Assembly (NCBI RefSeq): GCF_011405655.1
Contig: NZ_AP022829.1
Span: 62,001 to 126,000 of the forward strand
DNA length: 64,000 nucleotides
Origin: Adlercreutzia hattorii
Lineage (GTDB): Bacteria > Actinomycetota > Coriobacteriia > Coriobacteriales > Eggerthellaceae
Direction of reading: 5' to 3'
Positions within the stretch are counted from its first letter, which is position 1; each line of letters begins with the position of its first letter. Of the stretch, positions 5,250 to 57,042 are shown piece by piece. The position numbers and the translations under genes were made by a program. The notes under the pieces were generated by a model. That model ran no database searches and was not told where the DNA came from. It saw only the letters and a list, made by a program, of their open reading frames with translations.

Positions 5250-6596
5250 TTATCCCAAGAACTCTGCGAGGTCTATTTTCTGCGGGCCTCGCTCTTTTTC
5301 GATAAACATAACGGCATACCAGGGAAGGTACAGCACTTTGCCTTCCTCGCGCACGTTTCCACGGCAAAAGACGATGGCGCTGTCGATGCCCCATTCTCGC
5401 ACGGCCATCACGTTGTCGAGGGCTTTGTGCTTCTCGTAATCCTTTCCCGATTTAGCCTCGATAGGAAGCGCCTTCGATCCCTTCTCGATGACGAAATCAA
5501 CTTCGCCGTACTTGGCCTTGTCGAAGTAGCGCAGATCGAAGCCGTGGGCCGTCAGCTCCTGGGCGATGGCGTTCTCCAGCATGCTGCCCCAGTTCACCGC
5601 AAGGTTCCCTTGCAGAAGGTCGAATCGTGCATCGCCCGACGTTTGCGCGGACAGAAGCCCCACGTCACAGAGAAAGAGTTTGAACAGATTGTGCTGGGTG
5701 TTCAGCGACAAAGGCAGCTCCGGCGCTTTAACGTTGTAGCAGGGCAGCCCCACGCCGGCGTCAGCAACCCACATGAAATCACTCGCATAGCGCTCCATGC
5801 GGGCGCTCTTCGCCAGATCACTGAGCTTGAAGCGCTTGTTCTTCTTGTCGAGTTCCTCGGGAATAGCATCGAAGATCATCTTGATGTGGGCCCTATCGTC
5901 CCCGTATTTGGCGATATCTTGCCGATACAGGTCGACGATATCCTGCTGCACAGCCAGCACGTGTGACAGATCGGAGGTCTCATTGAACCGTTCGACGGCC
6001 GCCGGCATGCCCCCGACGACCATATACAGGGAAAATGCCCGGAGTAGCCGCTCGTGAATAGCGGTCGGAATGGGCTCGCGATTCCGCATTCGTTCCCGCA
6101 CCAGCTCCAGCGTCTGATCGTTTTGGCCAATAGCGTCGAAGAACTCTCTCAACGTGAGCGGGTACATGCGCAGATGCTGCTCGTAGCCCACCGGGTACGA
6201 CGGCACCTCCTTATAGGAGACGCCCAGAAGCGAGCCCGATTCAATGTAGTCGAACCGACCATCCTCCACGAGGAATTTCATGGCGGTACGGGCGCGCGGG
6301 CATTCCTGGATTTCATCGAAGAAGACGAGCGTCTGACCGGGAACGAGCGGCACCTTCGTGAAGGCCGTGAGGTTCGCTACGAGCGTATCGGCATCGAGAT
6401 CGCCTTCGAAGATCTCCCTCGCCTTGGGCGTCTCGATGAAGTTGATCTCCAGGAAGACCTCGTACTCGTTTCGGCCGAACTCACGGATGAGATACGTTTT
6501 CCCCACCTGCCGCGCGCCGGTCACGAGGAGGGCGCGCCTGTCGGGCGCACTCTTCCATTTCAGGAAGTCGTCATAGGCTTTCCTTTGAAGGGCCAT
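5250..6596 (-). CDS. AAA+ ATPase with C-terminal PD-(D/E)XK-like (DUF4143) domain
   Basis: The 448-residue protein has Walker A GARQVGKT (27-34), Walker B LVFFDEIQ (about 90) and a sensor-like ESGSLLG. A winged-helix middle and a C-terminal domain follow, with ExDFVIE and PIEAKSG, the spaced acidic and E-x-K residues of the PD-(D/E)XK nuclease-like fold. The family is widespread in gut anaerobes and its biological role is unknown. The ATG has an AAAGGA site; in-frame codons further upstream lie within the repeat array. The gene stands alone between the LuxR gene and an untranslated repeat array (6615-6726) that contains its probable promoter. Confidence 0.85.
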   Translation of the reverse strand: MALQRKAYDDFLKWKSAPDRRALLVTGARQVGKTYLIREFGRNEYEVFLEINFIETPKAREIFEGDLDADTLVANLTAFTKVPLVPGQTLVFFDEIQECPRARTAMKFLVEDGRFDYIESGSLLGVSYKEVPSYPVGYEQHLRMYPLTLREFFDAIGQNDQTLELVRERMRNREPIPTAIHERLLRAFSLYMVVGGMPAAVERFNETSDLSHVLAVQQDIVDLYRQDIAKYGDDRAHIKMIFDAIPEELDKKNKRFKLSDLAKSARMERYASDFMWVADAGVGLPCYNVKAPELPLSLNTQHNLFKLFLCDVGLLSAQTSGDARFDLLQGNLAVNWGSMLENAIAQELTAHGFDLRYFDKAKYGEVDFVIEKGSKALPIEAKSGKDYEKHKALDNVMAVREWGIDSAIVFCRGNVREEGKVLYLPWYAVMFIEKERGPQKIDLAEFLG

Positions 6597-6614
6597 ACTG
6601 CTAATCCTTTCGTC

Positions 6615-6726
6615 TTGCGACGAGTTTTCGCTCATTATAACCTCTTCTTGCGACGAGTTTTTTGGTTTTAGTTACTGTTTTGCGACGAGTTTTCGCGTTT
6701 TCTGAACTTGATTTGCGACGTTTTTC
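6615..6726. repeat. Four-copy phased direct repeat at the ATPase promoter
   Basis: TTGCGACGAGTTTT starts at 6615, 6648 and 6680, with a degenerate fourth copy (TTGCGACGTTTTTC) at 6713. Spacings are 33, 32 and 33 bp, about three helical turns. On the minus strand a TATAAT (6639-6634) lies between copies 1 and 2. Copy 2 therefore covers the -35 region and copy 1 the start of the message. The layout suggests an operator array. Confidence 0.85.
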
Positions 6727-6755
6727 AACTCTGGGACATTTTCGGTAGTCTCCCT

Positions 6756-18594: not shown

Positions 18595-18769
18595 TTTTGC
18601 AGTTCCAAGGGCGGATACATATAGTACTCGCGAAAGTGTTCGGGTGCAATCGAACAAGATGTGTTTTTCGTCACCAGAAAAGAACAGAATTAATTTCGAC
18701 GTGTGGTCGATGAGCCGCTTGAAAGTTGTCAACGATGTAGGCTCGCGCGAGAACCGACTACGGCTGAAA

Positions 18770-18813
18770 CGCGACTTATAGGCGGTTGGGGCGCGACTTA
18801 TGGGCAGTTGGGG
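18770..18813. repeat. Two tandem 22-bp repeats overlapping the ECF S gene end
   Basis: CGCGACTTATRGGCRGTTGG(GG) occurs twice in direct contact (18770-18791, 18792-18813), followed by CGCGAC. The second unit contains the stop codon of the ECF S-component gene. Confidence 0.7.
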
Positions 18814-19586
18814 CGCGACCGATCGAGTAAACCGTACTTCACGCGGACGCGGGCGAGTTGGTCGAGCAGGGGGTTCGCCACGACCAGCAGCGTGAGGGCT
18901 GTGGCCGCCCCATGAATGGCGTTCACCGGCAGGCCGGCGAGGTACACCACCGCGGCCAGCTCCGGCGTGGGGGCTGTGGAAAGATAGAAGAACGTGGACG
19001 TATCCAGAATGGGACCCACGAGCCCCACAATAAGCACGAACCCCACGGTTGCCAGCGCAATACGGCGCGGCCAGGAAAGGTTCGCTCGCGGGAACACGCG
19101 GACGTCGGCAAGCAGCCCTGCCACGAGCCCCGCCACTCCAAAGGCGAGCATCTGCCAGGGCGTCCAGGGCCCCTGGCCGAAGATGAAGTTGCTGGCAAGC
19201 GCCGCCACCGAACCCACGAGGAACCCGGTTTGGGGGCCGGCGGCGAGCCCTGCGATCATAATGACGGCGGCCATGGGCTTGAAATGCGGCACCCAGATGA
19301 ACGCCGCGCGGGCCGCCACGGCGAGCGCCGTCAGCACGGCCACCACGGCAATTTCGCGCGCCGTGGGACGTCGCCCTTCGAAGGAAACGAAGAAGGGCAC
19401 GATAGCGTACAGCACGATGAGCGTACCGGAGAGGTAGTAGCCGTTGCCGGGCACAGCCATACCCACGACTGCGGTCAGCGGCGCGAGCACCAACGCCGCA
19501 AGAATCGTCAGGATCGTCTTGACTCGGGCGCGACGACGCGCGAGAGAGAGCTCGGCAGGGCGCCCGTCTTCGATCAGCTTCGGCAC
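18798..19586 (-). CDS. ECF transporter substrate-binding (S) component
   Basis: The 262-residue, six-helix membrane protein has a FGQGPWTPWQM motif and GAxxGF segments seen in S components of the CbrT-like group. The chosen GTG start overlaps the ATPase stop by 13 bases and follows a GGTGGTGGGG site. Substrate is not evident. Cobalamin or a related cofactor is possible because CbrT-like proteins import it and a methionine-synthase-like gene heads the operon, but that is inference. Confidence 0.8.
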   Translation of the reverse strand: MPKLIEDGRPAELSLARRRARVKTILTILAALVLAPLTAVVGMAVPGNGYYLSGTLIVLYAIVPFFVSFEGRRPTAREIAVVAVLTALAVAARAAFIWVPHFKPMAAVIMIAGLAAGPQTGFLVGSVAALASNFIFGQGPWTPWQMLAFGVAGLVAGLLADVRVFPRANLSWPRRIALATVGFVLIVGLVGPILDTSTFFYLSTAPTPELAAVVYLAGLPVNAIHGAATALTLLVVANPLLDQLARVRVKYGLLDRSRPNCP

Positions 19587-24039: not shown

Positions 24040-24271
24040 CTGGAAATAGTTGCGAGTTTCGAGCAGCCGAACCGGGCAAATCTCACAGTGACCGCCCAAA
24101 TCCGGAAGTAGATGAGAGTTTCGAGCATCATTTCGCACCGCACGCGCTGATTTTGTCCAAATCGCGCCCGAAACTCGCATCTATTTCCGAAGCTTCCCTC
24201 GTTATGCCCGAAACTCGCATCTATTTCCGAAATTCTCCTTCGCTATGCTCGAAACTCACATCTATTTCTAT
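24040..24271. repeat. Five-copy repeat, two inverted then three direct
   Basis: CGAAACTCGCATCTATTTCC starts at 24169, 24209 and 24250 (periods 40 and 41 bp). Two reverse-complement copies end at 24061 and 24123. The region 24009-24307 holds no gene. Confidence 0.8.
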
Positions 24272-40432: not shown

Positions 40433-41713
40433 CTACGGGGCCAGGCAGGTTATCGGGACGACGTAGACGCCGTCCGGTCGGCAATAGGCCGCTTGCTGGC
40501 CCGTGAGCACCATAAGGAACGAGGGAGCTCCCTCTTTGGAATCGTCAACACGCGAGGCGAGCTTCAACAAGTGGGCCGCGCCCTCTTCAACCTGCTTCTC
40601 GCCGAGCTTCACCTCGACGGCCCCCCAGCGACCATCGTCCAAGACGACGACGGCGTCGGCCTCGAGACCCGTCTTATCGCGATAGTGGTAGACGGTTCCC
40701 CGCAGCTTGGCCGCATACACGCGCAGATCACGCACGCACAGCGATTCGAAAAACAGCCCGAAGGTACTAAAGTCCAGCAAGAGCTTCCGCGGAGACACGC
40801 CCAACAGGGCCGCCCCGATGCTCGGATCGCAGAAGTGCCGCGTCGAGCTGGTGCGCACGGCGGTCTTGGAGCGCAACGCCGGATTCCACGCCGGCAAGTC
40901 CTCGGTAACGTAGGTGCGCCGGAGCGCGTCGAGGTAATCGGCGACCGTGTTCTCCGAAGGCGGCTCTCCTCCCATATCCGCCGCGATGGTCGCCTGGCTC
41001 GCCTCGGTGGATATGTTGCGCGCATAGGAGCGCAGAATGGCCCGCAGCCACGTCGAGTTGCGCTTCTTGTCGTCCATCTCGTCGATGTCCGAGTCGAGCA
41101 GCTCGGCAACGTAATCCTTAGCCTGGTCGAGGGCGATCTCCGGATCGCTTTCCAGCACGGCCTCCGGCCAACCGCCACGGCAGAGCGCAAAGGCGATGTC
41201 CTCGATGGAGCGATCAGATATGGCGCCCACCTCGGCGGCACCATCGAAGAGCCCCGCTAGCGAGACCGCGCCCGTAGACTCGCGGGATTCGAAGAGCGAC
41301 ATGGGGCGCATATGCATACGGGATATCCGTCCCACGCCGGAATGCTTCGGTCTCTTCTTGGGCGTAGCCGAACCGGTGAGGATGAACCGGCCCTTGCCCT
41401 TCCCCTGGTCGACCGCGAAACGGACGGCATCCCACAGCTGCGGCGCCATCTGCCATTCGTCGATGAGGTGCGGCTCGGCGCCTTCCAAGAGCACCGACGG
41501 GCGCACTTCGGCCAAAGCGACCAGAGAGGGACCCTCGTCGGGATCTTGGAGGTACACAGCACTTTGCGCCTGCTGCTTGGCCGTCTCGGTCTTGCCGCAC
41601 CATTTCGCGCCGACGATCTGAACGGCGCCGGAAGCCCGAAGCGCCCGCTGAAGCACAGCGTCGGCCACGCGCGGCCAATAGCCCTCCTGTCGCTCTTCGT
41701 CCTTCTCCACCAT
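40433..41713 (-). CDS. AAA+ ATPase with PD-(D/E)XK-like C-terminus
   Basis: The 426-residue protein has Walker A GAKWCGKTETA (about 35-45), Walker B HLIDEWQ and an RFILTGSATP sensor segment. A DUF4143-like tail carries GLEADAVVVLDDGRWGAVEVK (spaced D and E-x-K). It is a distant relative of the ATPases at 5250 and 42103. The ATG lies 62 bp from a three-copy repeat array whose first copy covers the -35 region of a TATAGT promoter. It abuts a truncated PucR gene, suggesting recent insertion. Confidence 0.85.
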   Translation of the reverse strand: MVEKDEERQEGYWPRVADAVLQRALRASGAVQIVGAKWCGKTETAKQQAQSAVYLQDPDEGPSLVALAEVRPSVLLEGAEPHLIDEWQMAPQLWDAVRFAVDQGKGKGRFILTGSATPKKRPKHSGVGRISRMHMRPMSLFESRESTGAVSLAGLFDGAAEVGAISDRSIEDIAFALCRGGWPEAVLESDPEIALDQAKDYVAELLDSDIDEMDDKKRNSTWLRAILRSYARNISTEASQATIAADMGGEPPSENTVADYLDALRRTYVTEDLPAWNPALRSKTAVRTSSTRHFCDPSIGAALLGVSPRKLLLDFSTFGLFFESLCVRDLRVYAAKLRGTVYHYRDKTGLEADAVVVLDDGRWGAVEVKLGEKQVEEGAAHLLKLASRVDDSKEGAPSFLMVLTGQQAAYCRPDGVYVVPITCLAP

Positions 41714-41775
41714 GGCGCGCCCCTTCCATCAATGATCGATCGGTGCGCCTACTATACCACGTCAGCGAGGTGATT

Positions 41776-41836
41776 GCGGAAGTTGGATCGTTTTCATTAC
41801 GGAAGTTGGATCATTTTTGTTGAGGAAGTTGGACTT
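41776..41836. repeat. Three-copy 23-bp-period repeat at the ATPase promoter
   Basis: GGAAGTTGGATC-type units start at about 41778, 41801 and 41824 (two exact, third ending GGAC), with 23-bp spacing. The minus-strand -10 TATAGT lies at 41756-41751, so the first unit covers its -35. Confidence 0.8.
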
Positions 41837-41935
41837 TTGGGAGACATTTGTCGCACCGAGGACGTATCCCTTCTCCAGGTGGTAATTACCCACGTCGAGG
41901 ATCTTGCCGAGCGCCTTGTGCCGTGCGAGGGAACA
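41831..41935 (-). pseudogene. Relic of a DUF4143 ATPase C-terminus
   Basis: The minus strand encodes HKALGKILDVGNYHLEKG followed by YVLGATNV. This aligns with HKALDNVMAVREWGIDSA and IVFCRGNV in the ATPase at 5250. An in-frame stop lies shortly upstream. No other part survives. The remainder to 42102 shows nothing coding. Confidence 0.5.
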
Positions 41936-42102
41936 ACAACGTCAACTCTGGCCGCAACGCCGCCAACGCTGCTGCGGTTTACCTAGCCGCATAGCGCGAG
42001 AACAAGGATAGTCACCAAAACCGCCGGCTACTCTCGTCTAGTCGCTCTTCCCCATACAGGCCGCCACGTATCTCCCTCCCCTGCGTGGCAGCCTGAGCGT
42101 TG

Positions 42103-43476
42103 TCATTGTCCTGCGATCTCCTTGTGGAAATAGGCACCGAACGCGTACAGTGGCACGTTCTTAATCACTCCATCACGTGAGAAAGGGGCCAACGAAGTGC
42201 GCAAGGCCAGTACTGGGAGATGCTTTTTGACGAAAGCGGCAAGGCTTTTCGCCCTCAGATTGGTTCCAGCCTTCACCTCAATGGGCACGGGCTGCGGCAC
42301 TCGCTCGTTTCCATCTACGATGAAATCGATTTCGGTGCGCGTCGACTGGTTCATGAAATAGTGCAGCTTGTTGCCCGTATCCACTTTGTTGCCCGCCTGG
42401 CCGCTCGCAAGCAGTTCTTGGGCAACGAGCTGCTCTGCAAGCGCCCCCTTGAATGAACTGAACAACGCCTCGCTATCGAGAATAGTTCGGGCACTCAAGT
42501 TGCACATTGCGCCAAGTAGACCCACATCGAGCACATAGACCTTGAACACTCCCTCGTCTTCATGAGACGCAAGAGGCGACTCGGGCACGCTCACACAACT
42601 CGAGGGACACACAAGCGAGGTGTCGGTCAGCCATTGCAGAGCATCTTCGTACTCCCGGGCTCTCGCCGACTCCCGTATCTTGGAAAACATAAACTTACGG
42701 TTTTCTTTGGCCAAGTTTGTCGGCACCGCCCGCCAGACACGACGAATCCGTTCTGCTAGCGCATCGTCGGCATACTTTGAGAAATCGGCGTTGTAGGAGC
42801 GCAAGAGCTCGCTGTGCACACGGCGCGCCTCCGCTGGATCCGACGTTTCTGCGAAGGAAAGCACCGCCTCCGGCATTCCCCCTACGAATAGATATTGTTT
42901 CAGCAGCTCGATCAACCGGTCGTGGAACGGGGCCATGGCATCCCAGTCAAGATCAGACACCAATTCAGCCAACAATTCCTCACCAACACCGTCTAAAAAC
43001 TCCCGGAAACTGAGAGGGTAGAGATCGAGAAAGCTCACTTTCCCCACAGGGAATGAAGCCCGCGCCTGCGGCTTATTTTCCGTTCGCTTCCCCCGCCGCA
43101 ACGCAAGTCCGAGCGCCGATCCGCCCGCAACAACGGGAATATGGGGAGTTTGCTCGTTGAAGTACTTGAGCGATTGAATGGCGCGAGGGGATTCTTGTAT
43201 CTCATCAAGAATGAGCAGAGTATGCTTGTCGATGCGGACGCCTGCTTCAGCTTGGAGTATGGGAAGGAGCCTGTTCGGCGACAACGATCCTTCGAAAGCG
43301 GCGATGAGCTGGGGATTGTCATCGAAGGTGATGTACGCCGTTTCCCTGAAGTACGCTCGCCCAAACTCCTTCATAAGCCACGTTTTCCCCACCTGCCGGG
43401 CTCCGCTCACGATGAGCGGCTTTCGTCGAGGAGATTCTTTCCAGCGCTTCATATCTTCGATGGCCTGGCGCTTCAT
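42103..43476 (-). CDS. AAA+ ATPase with PD-(D/E)XK-like (DUF4143) domain
   Basis: The 457-residue protein has Walker A GARQVGKTW (25-33), Walker B LLILDEIQ (about 90) and sensor VVAGGSALG. The C-terminal RTEIDFIVDG and VPIEVKAG are PD-(D/E)XK-type residues. It closely parallels the ATPase at 5250 but has a different sequence throughout. A GAAAGGA site precedes the ATG. Three 33-bp-spaced repeats lie just upstream. Confidence 0.87.
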   Translation of the reverse strand: MKRQAIEDMKRWKESPRRKPLIVSGARQVGKTWLMKEFGRAYFRETAYITFDDNPQLIAAFEGSLSPNRLLPILQAEAGVRIDKHTLLILDEIQESPRAIQSLKYFNEQTPHIPVVAGGSALGLALRRGKRTENKPQARASFPVGKVSFLDLYPLSFREFLDGVGEELLAELVSDLDWDAMAPFHDRLIELLKQYLFVGGMPEAVLSFAETSDPAEARRVHSELLRSYNADFSKYADDALAERIRRVWRAVPTNLAKENRKFMFSKIRESARAREYEDALQWLTDTSLVCPSSCVSVPESPLASHEDEGVFKVYVLDVGLLGAMCNLSARTILDSEALFSSFKGALAEQLVAQELLASGQAGNKVDTGNKLHYFMNQSTRTEIDFIVDGNERVPQPVPIEVKAGTNLRAKSLAAFVKKHLPVLALRTSLAPFSRDGVIKNVPLYAFGAYFHKEIAGQ

Positions 43477-43496
43477 GGCATCCTTTCAGGGTGATT

Positions 43497-43578
43497 CACG
43501 TTTTTGCATAGGTTATTTTTGCAAATCACCACGTTTTTGCATAGGAGAATTTTGGGATTCACCACGTTTTTATATAGG
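43497..43578. repeat. Three-copy 33-bp-period repeat upstream of the ATPase
   Basis: CACGTTTTTGCATAGG occurs at 43497 and 43530, and CACGTTTTTATATAGG at 43563. The spacing is exactly 33 bp each time. The first copy ends the 5' leader, about 20 bp before the ATPase start. Confidence 0.88.
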
Positions 43579-43630
43579 TAACGGTATCCCGACATCAGCA
43601 GCTGAAAAGTCAACCTCATTCCGAATCGAG

Positions 43631-43710
43631 AAACTTAGTGAAACTTAGAACTCCTTAGAAGAACTTAGTTAAACTTAGTGAAACTTAGAACTCCTTAGTA
43701 AAACTTAGAA
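43631..43710. repeat. Eight-unit 10-bp repeat ahead of the P-loop-less ATPase
   Basis: A 40-bp block (43631-43670) is repeated at 43671-43710 with three mismatches. Within it AAACTTAGNN-like 10-mers recur (eight units, some CTCCTTAG). The array ends at the GGAGG ribosome site of the next gene. One unit equals one helical turn. Confidence 0.85.
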
Positions 43711-43719
43711 GGAGGCATT

Positions 43720-44449
43720 GTGGGCATCGAGGAGAATCCTTTCACCCCAAGGAGTCGGCGTGCTCTTCACCGTCGACGAAGTCGATCCGACGCTCGACGA
43801 AATGGTTCAGCTCGCCGCCTTCTACCAGCACTTTGTTCGGGAGGGGCGCAAGGTAGCGCTCCTCATGGCAGGACTGCCGCACAACATCTCATCTTTGCTC
43901 AACAACAAGACCGTGTCGTTTCTCCGGCGCTCGAACCGCAGGGCGCTTGACCGCATTCCCGACGGCGAGGTTTCCGCAGCGCTCGTGCGCACGGCCCAAG
44001 CAGGCAACCGCAACGTTGACGCAGCGGCGCTGACTGCAGCGACGGAGTCCATCGGCGGCTTTCCTTTCATGCTCCAGCTTGTCGGGTACTACGCCTGGGA
44101 CGAAAATCCCCGGGCTAGCACACTCGATTCGGCCGACTTCGCGCGCGGTATCGCCATCGCACAGCAGGAAATGACCTACCGTATTTTGGACGCCACCTTC
44201 GCCGAGCTCTCCCCCGGCGACCTTCGTTTCGCCGCAGCTATGCTGGAAGATGAAGGGGACAGCCGCATCGCCGATCTCGTCGAGCGGCTGGGGCGTTCCT
44301 CTTCCGTCGTGGCGCAGTACCGCAAGCGGCTTATCGACGCCGGCATCATTGGCAAACGCGCACGCGGCCTCGTGGGGTTCGACCTCCCTTACTTCCGCGA
44401 CTACTTGCAGGAGAAGCTCGACAACGGAGAACTGCTGCTCGAGAATTAG
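43720..44449 (+). pseudogene. ATPase gene with internal deletion removing the P-loop
   Basis: A GTG at 43720 after GGAGG starts GIEENPFTP, the usual N-terminus of a family of AAA+ ATPases. After nine residues the frame changes, and the sequence resumes at the Walker B region, GVLFTVDEVD. The roughly 100 residues with Walker A are gone. The rest (about 230 codons, LLMAGLPHNISSLL sensor, winged-helix end) is intact in the other frame and could be read from a TTG at 43718. An active ATPase is not expected. Confidence 0.8.
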
Positions 44450-45851: not shown

Positions 45852-46352
45852 CTAATCCCCGTGGGCGCGGGTTATGAGGTCGGCCATTTCGGTAGCGGTT
45901 TTGGTGGCTATGTTGGCCTGGGCAGCCAGGCGCTTGTCATGGGTCACCAGATAGTTTGCCTTGCTCAGCTCGCAGCAAGCAAGCACCGAAGCGTCTTCGT
46001 AATCCGAGGTGATATCGCGATAGTGGCGAGCTAGCCACGCCGTACGATCGTCCATGGGAACCGATATCGCAAGATCGGTCATGTGGTCGACGCACCCCCA
46101 CGCGAAGTTGTTTATAGCACGGGCCGTGCACTCGTCGACAGTGCCACCGTTCTCACATACTTGCTGCTTCAAAAACTTCCCAATGGTGTAAAAAACTTCA
46201 TTGACAGCATCCGCTGGCGTTCCCAAATTGGCGTTGTATTTCTCCGCAACGCGAATAAGGCGAGTAGCTTCTTCATGAAGGGGCCGCTCGTGAAGATAGA
46301 AGTCGAGCCAAATGTTTTTGTCTACAACAATAGCATTCTCCGCAACCGTCAC
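45852..46352 (-). CDS. PIN-domain toxin
   Basis: The 166-residue protein starts with AIVVDKNIWLDFYL (catalytic D10) and has later acidic residues in DYEDASVLACCE and VTHDKRL, the PIN/VapC RNase layout. Its ATG overlaps the antitoxin stop in ATGA. RNA cleavage is expected from the family; the target is unknown. Confidence 0.8.
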   Translation of the reverse strand: MTVAENAIVVDKNIWLDFYLHERPLHEEATRLIRVAEKYNANLGTPADAVNEVFYTIGKFLKQQVCENGGTVDECTARAINNFAWGCVDHMTDLAISVPMDDRTAWLARHYRDITSDYEDASVLACCELSKANYLVTHDKRLAAQANIATKTATEMADLITRAHGD

Positions 46353-46720
46353 CAGAGTCCCCTTTCAGCCAGTCTTTCGGTCTTCGCCTCGTAGAAAAGA
46401 TTGCCCCAATATTCATCCGAGAACTCCTGAGGCGAGGCAGCTGGCGGAATACCCAGGACCTCGCGTTGCGCCTGAAGCGATGCCAGGAAGTCCGTGACCG
46501 CTTGGGCGCGTTTCTCGCCCTCGCTCATGGTGTCGGTCTCCTCCGTCTCGGGGCCGATAACCGCCTGCAAGGCTGCCTCGGACTCGTCGTCGTAGCGCGC
46601 CGCCACCTCGTAAAAGCGCCGCAGGGCCTCCGATGGCGTGCAGCCGAACCGAGCAAAGCGCTCATCCCCGCGCCGCTTCAGCTCGGCATCGATACGAAAG
46701 TTCATCTGCATGTTCGGCAT
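46349..46720 (-). CDS. RelB/DinJ-type antitoxin
   Basis: The 123-residue protein begins MQMNFRIDAELKRRGDERFARFGCTPSEALRRF, a RelB/DinJ ribbon-helix-helix. A long acidic toxin-binding C-terminus follows. It pairs with the PIN toxin, a combination less common than RelB-RelE. A 9-bp inverted repeat 38 bp upstream is a likely operator. The ATG follows AAAGGGG. Confidence 0.82.
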   Translation of the reverse strand: MPNMQMNFRIDAELKRRGDERFARFGCTPSEALRRFYEVAARYDDESEAALQAVIGPETEETDTMSEGEKRAQAVTDFLASLQAQREVLGIPPAASPQEFSDEYWGNLFYEAKTERLAERGLW

Positions 46721-56783: not shown

Positions 56784-57042
56784 CCGTAGCACGGAGCCCC
56801 TTTTTGCCGCAGCGCTGCCGCCAATACGACATTATTCCGCCTTGTGCTACGGAGTTTGCTTCTGCTAACTTTGACAACTTTCGAGTTTCCCCAGTTCAGC
56901 TGTTTGTGACTATTTGTTAACTCTAGATTACACCGTAGCACGACCGCCCTTTCTGTCGCTCACGTTGAATCCAGCTGCCAAAATGGCGCCCCGTGCTACA
57001 GGGGGGCCGAACCCAGCTGCCAAAATGGCGCCCCGTGCTACG
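56784..57042. repeat. Private repeats with CCGTAGCAC/GTGCTACGG core
   Basis: The 9-bp core occurs five times in mixed orientation (about 56784, 56844, 56933, 56992, 57032). The last two belong to a direct repeat of about 32 bp (CCAGCTGCCAAAATGGCGCC onward) starting at 56971 and 57013. No gene lies between the tRNA pair and the ABC ATPase gene. Confidence 0.75.

Follow-up and report, generated by a model that had tools for sequence, protein, structure and literature searches.

The window analysed here, a stretch of 64,000 nucleotides from Adlercreutzia hattorii, holds four ATPase loci, and all four are preceded by direct repeats, as the initial annotation had proposed. The gene at 5250..6635 (minus strand) encodes a clade-B protein (P-loop GARQVGKT) composed of AAA_14, winged-helix and PD-(D/E)XK domains and identified as PDC-S01; its start is likely 6596, since a start at 6635 would fall within the array. 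This 33-bp array (6613..6729, minus strand) shows the unit AAAACTCGTCGCAA at 6615-6628, 6648-6661 and 6680-6693, with a fourth, degenerate copy near 6713-6725, and the -10 element TATAAT lies inside it at 6634-6639. The gene at 40433..41713 (minus strand) belongs to clade A (GAKWCGKT) and encodes AAA_14, a winged helix (residues ~220-300) and PD-(D/E)XK (308-426), again with a PDC-S01 match; about three copies of a 23-bp unit with the core GATCCAACTTCC occupy 41773..41840 (minus strand), and the -10 element TATAGT is found at 41751-41756. The position of a repeat copy on the -35, claimed for two loci, is correct for these two. A second clade-B gene of the PDC-S01 type (42103..43476, minus strand; AAA_14, winged helix 238-315, PD-(D/E)XK 338-457) follows a 33-bp array at 43497..43579 (minus strand), with the unit CCTATGCAAAAACGTG at 43497-43512, 43530-43545 and 43563-43578, the third copy being degenerate. 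Upstream self-similarity at these three DUF4143 loci reached 16.8, 24.8 and 31.4, against maxima of 12.8, 12.4 and 10.0 in 100 dinucleotide shuffles.

The fourth locus differs in family. On the plus strand, an array of 10/20/40-bp period (43631..43710, about eight copies of AAACTTAGA/AACTTAG) precedes the P-loop-less remnant of a second ATPase family, NPFTP (43720..44449). Its relatives have the P-loop GARGTGKT and a winged helix but no nuclease, and are AAA_22/ATPase_2-like. From NPFTP onwards until shortly before Walker B the gene is deleted, and its frame changes, so that the array survives beside a dead ATPase; the missing P-loop noticed at the outset thus reflects a 5' part that is deleted and out of frame. 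Note that a probable toxin-antitoxin pair lies further along the window (45852-46720), with a PIN-like gene (45852-46352) and an overlapping RelB/DinJ-like gene (46349-46720), recognised by sequence only.

The three intact proteins match the PADLOC profile PDC-S01 over nearly their full length (E-values 1e-170, 2.5e-65 and 4e-155), as do proteins of clades C and D, and both AAA_14 and DUF4143 exceed the Pfam gathering score in the window proteins. All three retain Walker A, Walker B and the E..D..ExK residues, in agreement with the nuclease-like E-x-K domain first read from them; these nuclease residues are invariant or at least 90% conserved among 60 clade-B and 30 clade-A proteins. AlphaFold models (mean pLDDT 93.3 and 90.8) display an AAA domain, a lid, a winged helix and a PD-(D/E)XK domain, and among solved structures both models match SSO1545 and PABY2304 best, with Orc1/Cdc6, clamp loaders, MalT, Avs3 and plant NLRs ranking next. 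In its published description, PDC-S01 is an ATPase fused to PD-(D/E)XK and the fourth most common defence system across prokaryotes, though unvalidated (PMC12988326). The defence role of the array-bearing proteins is only suspected: it is inferred, without any experiment on anti-phage activity.

At the genome scale, A. hattorii carries 15 DUF4143/AAA_14 genes, all chromosomal on one 2.9-Mb contig, of which 12 have an upstream direct-repeat array whose unit sequence is different at every locus. These 12 genes have either a KWCGKT/KGCGKT or a GARQ[VI]GK[TS] P-loop, and the best period splits exactly by P-loop type (22, 23 or 46 bp in six genes, 32 or 33 bp in the other six); even the low-scoring arrays keep these periods, with 32 at locus L003 and 23 at L011. 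Of the three genes left, L015 (GVRRCGKS) has a 40-bp period, and only weak scores were obtained for L001 and L009. It should be noticed that the array score permits no gaps and that clades are merely approximated by the P-loop type. In a control sample of 464 kb, made of the window and 20 sampled stretches of the same genome, a score of at least 15 was reached by 8 of 283 called genes, three of which are the DUF4143 loci of the window; this leaves 5/280 other genes, against 10/15 DUF4143 genes. The initial reading would have failed if homologues had carried arrays no more often than other genes, and the reverse was observed: at 80 named loci from other organisms, 56/79 clade-B genes but only 5/156 neighbours showed an array (score of at least 12, period 31-34). 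Judged by position and strand, all five positive neighbours look like divergent genes with the same intergenic region as the ATPase. Neighbouring genes are without arrays unless they share an intergenic region with the ATPase.

The array period goes with the protein clade, with 22-23 or 46 bp for the KWCGKT clade (A), 31-33 bp for GARQVGKT (B) and about 40 bp for GVRRCGKS. Indeed, in a protein tree of 100 genes of the same bacterial family, clade A was monophyletic (support 100) and had 28/31 genes at 22-23/46 bp, while clade B had 42/50 at 31-33 bp, clade D 4/5 at 39-40 bp and the GPRQSGK genes 5/5 at 23/46 bp. Once the period rule had been stated, 90 more genes of clade A were collected, almost exclusively from the order, and 85 of them gave a best period of 22, 23, 45 or 46. 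Clade B kept a best period of 31-34 in 68/79 genes (score of at least 8) from records named as Bacteroidota, Bacillota, Spirochaetota, Verrucomicrobiota, Chlamydiae, Cyanobacteria, Chlorobiota, Lentisphaeria, Elusimicrobia and one archaeon. Within the class of this archaeon, significant 32-33-bp arrays were found at five GIRQCGKT/GIRQVGKT genes, one GVRQVGKT gene and one GVRQCGKT gene, a second GVRQCGKT gene having no significant array, and the archaeal 33-bp arrays carry the same constant half AAAAATGTGTA. In the final tally, for which clades were assigned by an imperfect P-loop rule, 91/93 well-scoring clade-A arrays had a period of 22-24/44-47 and 100/105 clade-B/E arrays one of 31-34. The fixed period of the initial annotation thus holds, in a clade-specific form, but its term "helically phased" is a loose one, since 33 and 20 bp come close to an integral number of turns, unlike 23 and 15 bp.

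Arrays also accompany these genes on plasmids, at 33 bp in Segatella copri DSM 18205 and Collinsella aerofaciens and, for clade A, at 23 bp in 5/5 plasmids (Bacteroides ovatus, Prosthecochloris aestuarii DSM 271, C. aerofaciens ATCC 25986, Lentilactobacillus hilgardii and Actinomyces oris); in the same check of named plasmids, the B. thetaiotaomicron copy had no array. Only seven clade-A loci were met in IMG/VR and eight clade-B relatives in phage records, which indicates that the genes of both clades are mainly those of hosts and plasmids. In addition, arrays were mostly absent from clade E, from GPRQVGK genes and from archaeal GPRQSGK genes; the lack in clade E and in the archaeal genes implies that the fold can do without an array.

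Within these fixed periods, the units have a clade-specific form. When both strands were modelled, the clade-B site approximated YACAYTTTTT, six variable positions and GRNTTTTTG, i.e., a constant shell, with an EM score of 1204 against 649 (sd 16) in shuffled units and with confident sites in either orientation (39:10); the clade-A unit approximated YGAAAAT..NCAAA (721 against 418, sd 13). Orthologues with 73-93% identity in different genomes retain the unit within unrelated flanking sequence, and the similarity of units increases with protein identity. As an example of their privacy, the units of loci L013 and L006 were confined to their own promoter when the 2.9-Mb genome was searched, near-matches elsewhere being few and at chance level. 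Similarly, 47 clade-B loci typically had 2-4 upstream copies, with only three hits elsewhere in 250 kb, two of them prolonging a single array. Every array belongs to one gene, and the arrays form no genome-wide mark. A regulon or a genome-wide mark was accordingly rejected for the L013 and L006 units, and the suggestion that the arrays serve for marking and discriminating DNA is, in its genome-wide form, unsupported.

Other repeats of the genome deserve separate mention. The motif CGAAACTCNCATCTATTTC forms six dispersed clusters, at 24042-24267 of the window and at 205063-205191, 620942-621097, 1041635-1041790, 1590816-1591002 and 2124982-2125060 of the contig, with copies on both strands in most clusters and a spacing of ~31/41 bp (a reversed control pattern gave 0 matches); as it recurs at six places and never ahead of DUF4143 genes, the cluster at 24042-24267 was rejected as an ATPase array. 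A 22-bp repeat, GCGACTTATRGGCRGTTGGGGC, borders an ECF-type transporter gene at its 3' end (window 18761-18819) and is possibly the leftover of a lost clade-A module. Intergenic repeats with 42-bp spacing and the sequences CCAGCTGCCAAAATGG / CCAGTTGGGGGCAGAAATGG were noticed at window 56967-57041 and at L033:18516-18581. Finally, the stretch L033:3186-3220 contains three 12-bp repeats TTATACCGACAT that resemble an RptR site, ahead of an HsdM-like gene (type I restriction-modification).

If each protein recognises its own array, unit and DNA-binding domain should vary together, and in clade A they do. Among 94 non-redundant clade-A proteins, unit similarity correlated with winged-helix identity after correction for identity elsewhere (partial correlation 0.252, 0/300 permutations), and no such correlation was seen in this clade for the AAA domain (-0.002), the lid (-0.067) or the nuclease (-0.054). 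The signal peaks on the recognition helix, at residues 252-266 of the protein encoded at 40433-41713, with the best windows spanning residues 249-266 and the best columns at 260 and 256; both residues are on one face of the predicted helix (254-266), and the units look clearly different in clade-A proteins with another pair at 256/260 (R/F, R/L or K/H). No clean pair emerged in clade A from base-by-residue mutual information. In clade B the covariation was weak (partial r 0.07-0.09; 0.092 with 4/300 permutations), whether entire units or just their core were compared; its recognition helix is nearly constant, in line with the constant shell of its unit, and clade B backs the recognition model only mildly. 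Note that the permutations leave some shared ancestry, and that the recognition-helix signal relies on pairs sharing ancestry. Altogether, homologue enrichment and clade-A covariation support the early proposal that each protein recognises its own array, in the absence of binding data.

The arrays sit at the gene's own promoter, with a median end 46 bp upstream of the start codon (IQR 33-60). In Bacteroidota, a -7 box (TAnnTTTG) was close to the array in 13/27 loci against 5.8% of shuffles, and the last repeat ends at or near this box, often helping to form it. In clade A, strong -10 boxes were modestly enriched (64/94 against 49 in shuffles), and no fixed distance from array to -10 was found. 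At the 5250 locus, one unit copy (6615-6628) even lies downstream of the -10. Since copies cover -35, -10 or -7 elements and arrays occur on either strand, we infer that occlusion and autorepression are favoured over a MalT/IniR-like activation. Between the two functions first envisaged, autoregulation is preferred, both the binding and its effect on transcription remaining inferred.

Our main reading, to which we assign a probability of about 0.72 without binding or expression data, is that the proteins bind, each through its winged helix, the array private to them and thereby autoregulate, likely repress, the suspected defence nuclease. What computation shows is the existence of the arrays, their clade-fixed periods, the privacy of the two units searched, the conservation of units and the clade-A covariation with the recognition helix; physical binding, repression instead of activation, cooperative oligomerisation and a part in defence are inferences. 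The gene would then be a single-protein module, joining an AAA+ ATPase of the SSO1545 type to a DNA-binding winged helix and a PD-(D/E)XK nuclease, in which the winged helix would bind 2-6 private direct repeats over and just upstream of its own promoter. Packing of neighbouring protomers, i.e., an inferred cooperative oligomerisation, would set the spacing between bound copies, which would for that reason be fixed within a clade (~23, 33 or 40 bp), and the base sequence of each copy would be free to change along with the winged helix. Such private addresses may prevent cross-talk among the 10-30 paralogues of a genome. Bound copies would cover the -35 and -10/-7 region and keep a potentially dangerous ATPase-nuclease scarce, until an altered ATP or DNA occupancy, e.g., upon phage infection, would release it.

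Several other readings of the same arrays have to be weighed. An unlikely but still tenable one is that the protein binds its array as an activator, an ATP-bound oligomer on the upstream repeats recruiting RNA polymerase: MalT and other STAND proteins are among the fold neighbours, the SSO1545-like IniR activates iniBAC (PMC5760070), and the arrays reach upstream of the promoter. However, their last copies overlap the -10/-7 and are sometimes downstream of it (window 6615-6628), and they occur in either orientation, which speaks against it. That another factor reads the array, the proteins inheriting it by linkage only, cannot be excluded from the sequence alone, and no result favours it; we hold it to be improbable, since the units vary together with the winged helix of the protein they precede, and with none of its remaining domains, and such a factor would have had to diversify in parallel in each genome and each phylum.

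A mobile element, with the repeats as transposition or integration ends, could be suspected from the patchy distribution of these genes (0-29 copies per genome in one bacterial family) and from their carriage by plasmids. It is very improbable, as the repeats occur on the 5' side only, without the 3' copies that terminal repeats would require, and the protein has no transposase or integrase; a search for an empty site in two congeners bears on neither side, the flanks being non-adjacent there. We give hardly any credit to the idea that array and protein are an iteron-like site, for replication or partition, and the initiator acting on it, even if direct repeats of fixed spacing with a winged helix resemble plasmid iterons and the fold is ORC/Cdc6-like, because a genome can hold 15-29 copies, at odds with one initiator per replicon, the nuclease active site is conserved and the arrays are located at promoters. 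Autoregulation by the encoded protein, most likely repression, remains the reading that we retain.

The array principle may extend beyond DUF4143, as lightly tested data suggest for at least two other ATPase families. Within the same bacterial family, arrays of their own also precede the NPFTP relatives, most of them at a period of 18-20 bp, and among DUF234/ATPase_2 genes of another class (L423-L448), exact 15-bp upstream repeats were found at L440, L442, L443, L445 and L446; the latter family resembles PDC-S27 and suggests the same principle with another period. We put forward, as a speculation that is more doubtful than probable, that the DUF4143 clades (23, 33 and 40 bp), NPFTP (19-20 bp) and DUF234 (15 bp) are general sensors forming an ATP-dependent filament on their own promoter, that the ATPase-nuclease is both derepressed and activated once occupancy is lost in a phage takeover (through degradation of DNA, replication or a change of polymerase), and that the need for orthogonal addresses among paralogues drives a protein-DNA recognition code.

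Nothing was found on what PDC-S01 proteins bind, despite their reported abundance, and our literature search, which did not extend to subscription journals and preprints, found DUF4143 named in one paper only and returned no work linking DUF4143/PDC-S01 proteins to arrays. In this context, the arrays predict precisely which DNA is bound by a large fraction of these proteins, of which there are tens of thousands, so that binding and regulation become open to direct test. They amount, moreover, to hundreds of winged-helix/operator pairs that are orthogonal by nature and in which the clade-fixed spacing reports the oligomer geometry. They also give a concrete handle on the control of common, uncharacterised proteins suspected to act against viruses in bacteria and archaea.

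PDC-S01, which is the identity of the DUF4143 proteins of the window, has a description whose accessible part mentions no upstream array, promoter control or DNA-recognition rule. The archaeal AAA+ ATPases SSO1545 and PABY2304 are the closest solved structures, and the available portion of their descriptions contains no array or DNA target. In plasmid iterons with Rep, and in ParR/parC, an autoregulated promoter likewise carries direct repeats with a constant period; PDC-S01 differs from them in having no replicon or partition function, in its multiple chromosomal copies and in the presence of a nuclease. MalT and IniR are similar as ATPase-driven promoter regulators of related fold, but they activate other genes, have no nuclease and use one site type (PMC5760070 and general background). 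A close precedent is RptR, the autorepressor of type I RM defence islands, which acts through three direct repeats over the -10 (PMC12255303) and resembles the defence-linked autorepression via direct repeats that is inferred for the present system. RptR is a separate 9-kDa homodimer that reads one conserved palindrome, TAGCTA, whereas in PDC-S01 the effector itself carries the DNA-binding domain and each gene has its private site.
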